From: Capsaspora owczarzaki ATCC 30864
Lineage: Eukaryota > Opisthokonta > Filasterea
Direction: 5' to 3'
Assembly: GCF_000151315.2 (NCBI RefSeq)
Contig: NW_011887293.1
Location: forward strand, 1,681,208 to 1,745,207
DNA: 64,000 nucleotides
Positions 4,243-9,328 of the stretch are shown one piece after another. Within the stretch, counting starts at the first letter, position 1, and the number at the start of each line of letters is the position of its first letter. Below the pieces are notes generated by a model. It was not told the origin of the DNA. It saw nothing but the letters and a program-made list of their open reading frames with translations, and searched no databases. A program made the position numbers and the translations under genes.

Positions 4243-5072
4243 CTACAATTCATCGCGTTCCGAAGATGGCATTTGAACTTTGTCTCCCTGACGCGGCATC
4301 TGATGGGAGCCTACAAATACTTGCTCTTGCCGTGGTGCCGCGTGCGGCTTGCGCGTCTTGGAGCACTCATCGACCGTGTAATTGTCACAGTCTGCCTTGT
4401 TGGCCGCGTACTCGGGAAATGCGCTAAAACCTTGCTTGCCAATCGCAATACGCGCGCATCGGATGCTTTGCGACGCAATCATCAAGTCATTGCAGGCGAC
4501 TTGACACTCTGTGCGAGTCAATCACGACACGTTCGTTCGTTCAGCAGCGAGGATTGCGAAGCATCCCCCAAATTTTCTCCTACACCAAAAACCGCCATCA
4601 TCGCACAAAACAAAAAAACCATCAACTGCAGTTTCTGTGTCTTCCTTACGATTGCCAGGAGTGTCGACGGGTATGACATCTCGAACATTGTTGCCGGTGG
4701 ATGCGCCAAACTGAGTGCTGCACCACTGGGACTCGGCCATTCCGAACAGTCCCCAGCGCGTCTGCGGGCCCTTCGATCGGTCTTGCAGCGACGGGTCGAA
4801 TCCAGATGCGTGTTGTGCAATGCACTGCGTGTGGGGTGGATTGGGGGGGGTGAGAGGGTCTGAGGTGAGTCAGATTCTCGACGACCGATTGATCCCACTC
4901 ACTCGTATGCAACGTTTACCGTGAGTTTTGCAATGTCCTTTGCGGAGAAGGTGCCAATGTTGTGCAAGTGAGCGACCACTGCGCACTTGGACAGCGCGAA
5001 CGCCGGTCGAGCGACCAGCAGCGCAATGCAGCCGACCAGCAGCAGTAAACTTGAAGCAGACTTTCGCACCAT
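4243..5072 (-). CDS. Secreted C-type-lysozyme-like protein with ER-retrieval C-terminus, catalytic residues replaced
   Basis: Three exons (5072-4920, 4824-4650, 4508-4243) encode 197 aa. An N-terminal signal peptide (MVRKSASSLLLLVGCIALLV) is followed by a domain with all eight cysteines of C-type lysozyme/alpha-lactalbumin (GH22). Spacing from the second to the third Cys is exactly 33, as in hen lysozyme. GLFGMAESQWC aligns with GILQINSRWWC, and NQCQVAC with the CxxxC of the family. With this ungapped alignment, lysozyme Glu35 is Ala and Asp52 is Arg, so muramidase activity is unlikely. After the last Cys a ~40-residue polar tail ends in SSERDEL, an RDEL/KDEL-type ER-retrieval signal. The inferred role is a lumenal binding or chaperone-like protein rather than an enzyme. 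Exon 1 is spliced at ACG|GTAAAC; the other nearby GT shifts the frame. Confidence 0.8.

Positions 5073-5320: not shown

Positions 5321-9328
<4,008 letters not shown>

Follow-up and report, generated by a model that had tools for sequence, protein, structure and literature searches.

A divergent C-type lysozyme of Capsaspora owczarzaki with both catalytic acids replaced and a putative ER-retrieval tail

In the genome of Capsaspora owczarzaki, described as a unicellular holozoan living in Biomphalaria snails (PMC12422584), a three-exon gene encodes a 197 aa protein that by its sequence is a member of the C-type lysozyme family. In an alignment with hen lysozyme the catalytic Glu35 is replaced by alanine (Ala57) and the catalytic Asp52 by arginine (Arg74), and the protein ends in RDEL. 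It is probably a divergent pseudoenzyme of the GH22c type, predicted to be non-hydrolytic and to be located in the lumen of the ER. A sequence-only reading of this DNA had already proposed homology to C-type lysozymes, replacement of both catalytic acids and residence in the ER. The homology was borne out by family and shuffle searches and the replacements by the alignment, while the proposed ER residence is now backed by the RDEL tail together with two proteins encoded in the same genome, a KDEL receptor and a homologue of ERp44 that also ends in RDEL.

The gene is located on the minus strand at 5072-4243 of the window, which is the whole stretch of 64,000 nucleotides that was analyzed (GC near 0.53), and is divided into three exons by two GT-AG introns. 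Exon 1 (4920..5072) harbors the ATG, the signal-peptide-like residues 1-26 and the first lysozyme cysteine, C30, and its open frame ends with Thr51 next to a GTAAAC donor. Intron 1 (4825..4919; 95 nt, GTAAAC...GCAG, phase 0) lies immediately ahead of C52, which corresponds to hen C30. Exon 2 (4650..4824) contains C52, the segment CIAQHASGF with Ala57 at the Glu35 position, the segment TRWGLFGMAESQWC with Arg74 at the Asp52 position, and C86. It is followed by intron 2 (4509..4649; 141 nt, GTAAGG...ACAG, phase 1) and by exon 3 (4243..4508), which encodes C111, C115, C127, C150 and C158, the sequon NYT at residue 152, which is the only N-glycosylation sequon of the protein, and a 39-residue tail. 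The tail ends in RDEL, encoded by CGC GAT GAA TTG at 4246..4257 on the minus strand, directly 5' of the stop codon TAG.

In all three exons the chosen frame had the best codon usage of the six possible frames, judged against four long, unverified open frames within the window, and in exon 3 the margin was small (+0.014 per codon compared with -0.126 for the next frame). An alternative end of exon 1 located 18 nt further downstream, which would add the residues VNVAYE, was rejected: its donor is not GT, and the best match to a lysozyme structure worsened from E 4.3e-8 to 5.1e-5. By eye, no splice option that removes the tail was seen across the last 39 residues. The first 26 residues are basic and then form a strongly hydrophobic core, with AFA before the proposed cleavage site (judged by eye and by hydropathy), and hydropathy revealed no comparably hydrophobic second stretch in the rest of the protein. 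One of the nine cysteines, C15, lies within the signal peptide, and the other eight (C30, C52, C86, C111, C115, C127, C150 and C158) are in the mature part. Thus the three exons and 197 residues that the sequence-only reading had given were recovered, and a signal-peptide-like start, the eight lysozyme cysteines with a spacer of 33 residues separating the second from the third, the motif GLFGMAESQWC and the C-terminal SSERDEL on which it had relied are all present in the translation. On its 2.67-Mb contig the gene is embedded between an isocitrate dehydrogenase gene on one side and a RasGAP/VPS9 gene on the other, which makes a stray contaminant unlikely. A published targeting arm of C. owczarzaki coWts (100 nt; PMC10959527) aligned to contig C1 of this genome at 100 of 100 positions, in keeping with the species name, whereas a coYki arm of 90 nt (PMC9170242) found no match, which counts against the name and might be due to a gap or to an absent small scaffold. 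At 6541-6745 of the window a long CT repeat was noticed by eye, directly followed by a stretch of about 40 bases that occurs twice in tandem (GGCTCCGACCCGCTGTTCATAG...); this doubling near the RasGAP/VPS9 gene could be due either to tandem duplication or to an artefact of the assembly.

Assignment to the C-type lysozyme family was based on several searches. Residues 27-151 matched the Pfam family of C-type lysozymes and alpha-lactalbumins, PF00062, with an E-value of 3.5e-11 and 43.9 bits (cut-off 27), and for the 197 aa protein no other Pfam family was obtained at E up to 10 and no family in the prokaryote library NCBIfam. A search of the PDB at E up to 10 yielded 107 distinct sequences, the best 60 of which are lysozymes, alpha-lactalbumins and SPACA3, with 'Lys-rich lysozyme 2' (3cb7) as top match. 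When scored with a profile of six animal sequences, the real protein reached 55.4 bits and the best of 2,000 shuffled versions, in which every cysteine was kept in place, 9.3 bits (the program reported 1,913 of these versions), so that the match exceeds a mere cysteine pattern. One of the six profile sequences, the lysozyme C chain 6t6c, itself shows Ala at the Glu35 position, which may add slightly to the 55.4 bits. The eight mature cysteines are arranged in lysozyme order, and in the automatic alignment with hen lysozyme seven of them matched, C150 being placed three residues off the column of hen C115. Identity to five aligned animal sequences ranged from 21 to 33%, the highest value coming from a 6ukc fragment of 88 residues. 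The automatic annotation of public databases has probably already assigned the gene to PF00062.

The C terminus argues for retention in the ER. For the KDEL receptor, KD values of 2.71 µM for RDEL and 1.94 µM for KDEL and retention of RDEL cargo in cells are reported in PMC8248988. A KDEL receptor (PF00810) is encoded in the Capsaspora genome by two exons (99.6 and 91.1 bits), in which the segments RYLDL, YLESVAI.PQL and YRALYL.NW are visible. Further, on contig C7 an open frame of the thioredoxin family encodes a homologue of ERp44 that ends in LLRDEL; it matched the ERp44 structure 2r2j with an E-value of 1.6e-81 and with its CRFS site aligned, and its RY.LLRD end also aligned with 2r2j, a match that is weak by itself (7.2 bits). 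RDEL thus appears to be in use in this genome. Other ER-type tails in the genome are KGEL and DHEL in PDI-like frames and HDEF in an HSP70 frame, which we take to be BiP. This variety counts somewhat against the preferred reading, as the preference of the receptor would not be deducible from the tails. With a signal-peptide-like start, an [HKR]DEL end, a KDEL receptor and RDEL elsewhere in the genome, the features expected of a soluble ER resident were found in the sequence, and the protein is very probably ER-resident. Lysozymes are normally secreted, and cargo with such tails is not always fully retrieved, so the protein might instead be secreted or lysosomal and serve in defence or digestion, with an RDEL that arose by chance or merely slows secretion. 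We regard this as improbable, since an [HKR]DEL end is expected by chance at a rate of about 3.8e-5 (residue frequencies in five long frames of the window), RDEL recurs on the ERp44 homologue encoded in this genome, and the catalytic acids are gone.

The origin of the gene was addressed with a phylogeny of eight rows. The end branch of Capsaspora amounted to 4.95 changes per site and had no supported place, one of the five inner branches was well supported, and the program warned that the long branches of Capsaspora and of a Pigmentibacter sequence meet. The suggestion in the sequence-only reading of an early or repurposed branch therefore obtained no supported place in the tree, and with such a long branch the gene may have been inherited vertically, with losses afterwards, or acquired long ago from an animal. 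A tentative scenario is that the C-type lysozyme fold arose before the animals and that unicellular holozoans already used it for a non-hydrolytic protein in the ER lumen, with animal lysozyme C, alpha-lactalbumin and SPACA3 as later members of the family. If true, this family would have had, early in its history, a perhaps conserved branch of pseudoenzymes whose task in the ER concerned folding or glycans.

Searches of the Capsaspora genome with PF00062 at E 0.001 and E 10 revealed no paralogues, and the same search overlooked even the gene described here, in which the domain is distributed across three exons; it also matched none of 14 control genomes, and is thus weak. No paralogue was found with a fly lysozyme fragment, a search of limited sensitivity. 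With the 197 aa protein as query, the search recovered the three exons of the gene and, beyond these, a single weak match (E 0.06); the latter was rejected as a paralogue, as it is antisense to a frame that was read as a phospholipase C gene. At E 0.01 no match was detected in this genome to i-type lysozyme (PF05497; 0 of 14 control genomes matched, no positive control) or to GH25 (PF01183; 3 of 14 control genomes matched). As an observation apart, T-box matches, apparently representing three genes within about 35 kb, are located on contig C9 (400151-434694, genome G000), with another on C15.

The very long end branch and the failure to find a paralogue, in searches of limited sensitivity, would also suit a pseudogene, that is, a decaying copy of a once active lysozyme. 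Such decay is very unlikely for a gene that has 197 open codons over three exons with clean splice sites, retains all eight structural cysteines, shows coding-like codon usage in each exon (narrowly in exon 3) and ends in a functional-looking tail.

Relatives of the protein were also searched for outside Capsaspora. In genome_contigs none was confirmed among 58 pattern stretches, nor among 7 with a bacterial query; in viral_contigs 0 of 32 were confirmed, and phages gave no match at E 0.1. Among plasmids one record was matched by the Capsaspora protein at E 0.1, that of Pigmentibacter (E 8e-3, 25.5% identity). This hypothetical protein, encoded on the Pigmentibacter ruber plasmid AP029160.1 (L023 2479-3267), scores above the cut-offs of Lys (PF00062), SLT_3, SLT and M23, and a neighbouring frame has a weak, below-cut-off match to TrbI. 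By sequence it seems to link the C-type lysozymes to the bacterial transglycosylases. The ES motif is retained, but of the lysozyme cysteines only about half are present, with none at the C1, C3, C5 and C7 sites, and there is no WC motif. Hen lysozyme itself, at E up to 0.01, matched 23 records from plasmids, mostly annotated as lytic transglycosylases. A match to PF00062 alone therefore does not define a lysozyme as being of the animal type. The sequence-only reading had placed the protein outside animals; this holds for the host, a unicellular holozoan, and needs the qualifier that the Pigmentibacter plasmid protein passes the PF00062 cut-off as well.

C-type lysozymes are related to SLT domains, and the Pigmentibacter protein, which matches both families, is the sole plasmid record found with the Capsaspora protein, so one could suppose that the genome acquired a bacterial transglycosylase domain of the SLT/VirB1 type rather than holding a C-type lysozyme; the warning about meeting long branches points in the same direction. 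We consider such an acquisition highly unlikely, as the Capsaspora protein matches PF00062 alone and has all eight lysozyme cysteines, half of which, like the WC motif, are missing from the bacterial protein, and as no relative was confirmed in genome_contigs, viral_contigs or phages. The eight cysteines support assignment of the Capsaspora sequence to the animal type.

Apart from Glu35 and Asp52, several cleft residues differ from hen lysozyme (N46S, Q57G, N59A, W62Q, D101K and W108F), whereas W63 is kept. Gly54 and Gln57 are described as residues of the GH22c hairpin motif (PMC2976769); in the Capsaspora protein Gly54 is retained (Gly76) and Gln57 is replaced (Gly79). Consequently, Glu35, Asp52 and the full Gly54/Gln57 motif expected of an enzyme of EC 3.2.1.17 are absent. 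With both acids and further cleft residues changed, ordinary lysozyme chemistry is not expected, and the protein is almost certainly non-catalytic. That hydrolysis was taken over by other acidic residues of the cleft, such as Asp61 or Glu82, is hardly credible: the lysozyme superfamily tolerates varied positions of the second acid, and Bdellovibrio DslA uses another one, but according to the same source the acid of the ES motif, the first of the two, is invariable (PMC7511926), whereas in the Capsaspora protein this acid is Ala, the residues beside Ala57 are Gln, His, Ser and Gly, and cleft contacts are changed. Replacement of W108 and other cleft residues also makes sugar binding in the usual groove doubtful, which weakens the idea of a lectin-like partner role.

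For a non-hydrolytic protein of the ER lumen the following course can be proposed, largely from established biology. The signal-peptide-like start would direct the protein into the ER, where the four lysozyme disulfides would form and Asn152 may receive an N-glycan. Protein that leaks to the Golgi would be brought back by the KDEL receptor. The least certain step is the function itself, for which a non-hydrolytic binding or scaffold partner in the ER lumen is conceivable, most likely during maturation of secreted or surface glycoproteins. Alpha-lactalbumin acts as partner of a galactosyltransferase, and SPACA3/SLLP1 binds without cutting. By analogy, the Capsaspora protein might hold a glycan-related factor in the manner of these two proteins, and any particular partner role of this kind is put forward as a possibility that we rate as rather doubtful. 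A published method disrupts Capsaspora genes (PMC9170242).

Two recent publications touch on the distribution of lysozymes around the origin of animals. In a passage of PMC12855814 (2026), early-branching animals are stated to have no homologues of lysozyme subfamilies besides the g-type, with the exception of a report of an i-type in sponge. PMC11576321 (2024) mentions, with reference to a manuscript in preparation, that Capsaspora, Monosiga, two Pigoraptor species and Ministeria possess 'unclassified' lysozyme genes, which belong to neither the i- nor the c-type; the Capsaspora lysozyme meant there may or may not be the gene at 5072-4243. A Capsaspora gene that scores above the PF00062 cut-off and has all eight cysteines bears on both statements. 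It makes the age of the C-type lysozyme family testable and suggests that, outside animals, an animal-type lysozyme fold served a use other than killing bacteria. Among the open-access papers listed by literature searches, none was seen to name an inactive lysozyme domain that carries an ER-retrieval tail.

Compared with GH22c lysozymes such as hen lysozyme and 3cb7, the Capsaspora protein has in common the domain, the order of the eight cysteines, the 33 residues between the second and the third cysteine, and the segments TCIA.H.S, G.F, WC and QG..A, and 23 of 121 residues aligned with hen lysozyme are identical. It differs by 13 extra residues before C4, a shorter C-terminal loop, the 39-residue tail with RDEL and the change of both catalytic acids and several cleft residues. 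Accordingly, 24 residues separate C3 and C4 compared with 11 in the hen sequence, and later spacings are 11 compared with 13, 22 compared with 20 and 7 compared with 11.

Closer in the state of their active site are known members without activity. The SPACA3/SLLP1 proteins of mammals mostly have Thr or Ala in place of Glu35, the latter in cattle, buffalo and other species, and Asn in place of Asp52; human SLLP1 is inactive, and sites 63 and 108 are described as the least tolerant to change in the SPACA3 family (PMC5104373). Phe at site 108 thus places the Capsaspora protein further from sugar binding than SPACA3. Both are C-type lysozymes in which the two catalytic residues are replaced. Unlike the Capsaspora protein, SPACA3/SLLP1 is an animal sperm protein with Asn52 and is not known to have an ER-retrieval tail. 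Alpha-lactalbumin, which is among the PDB matches, resembles the Capsaspora protein as a non-hydrolytic PF00062 protein of the secretory pathway. It is a mammalian, calcium-binding, secreted protein that is not known to carry RDEL. When five sites of its calcium loop were checked, only D117 (site 82) was found to fit in the Capsaspora protein. ERp44 has a secretory start and an RDEL end as well, but a thioredoxin fold, so that the retrieval signal is the sole common feature. Dead C-type lysozymes are therefore already known from alpha-lactalbumin and SPACA3/SLLP1, and what is new here is the unicellular holozoan host and the ER-retrieval tail.
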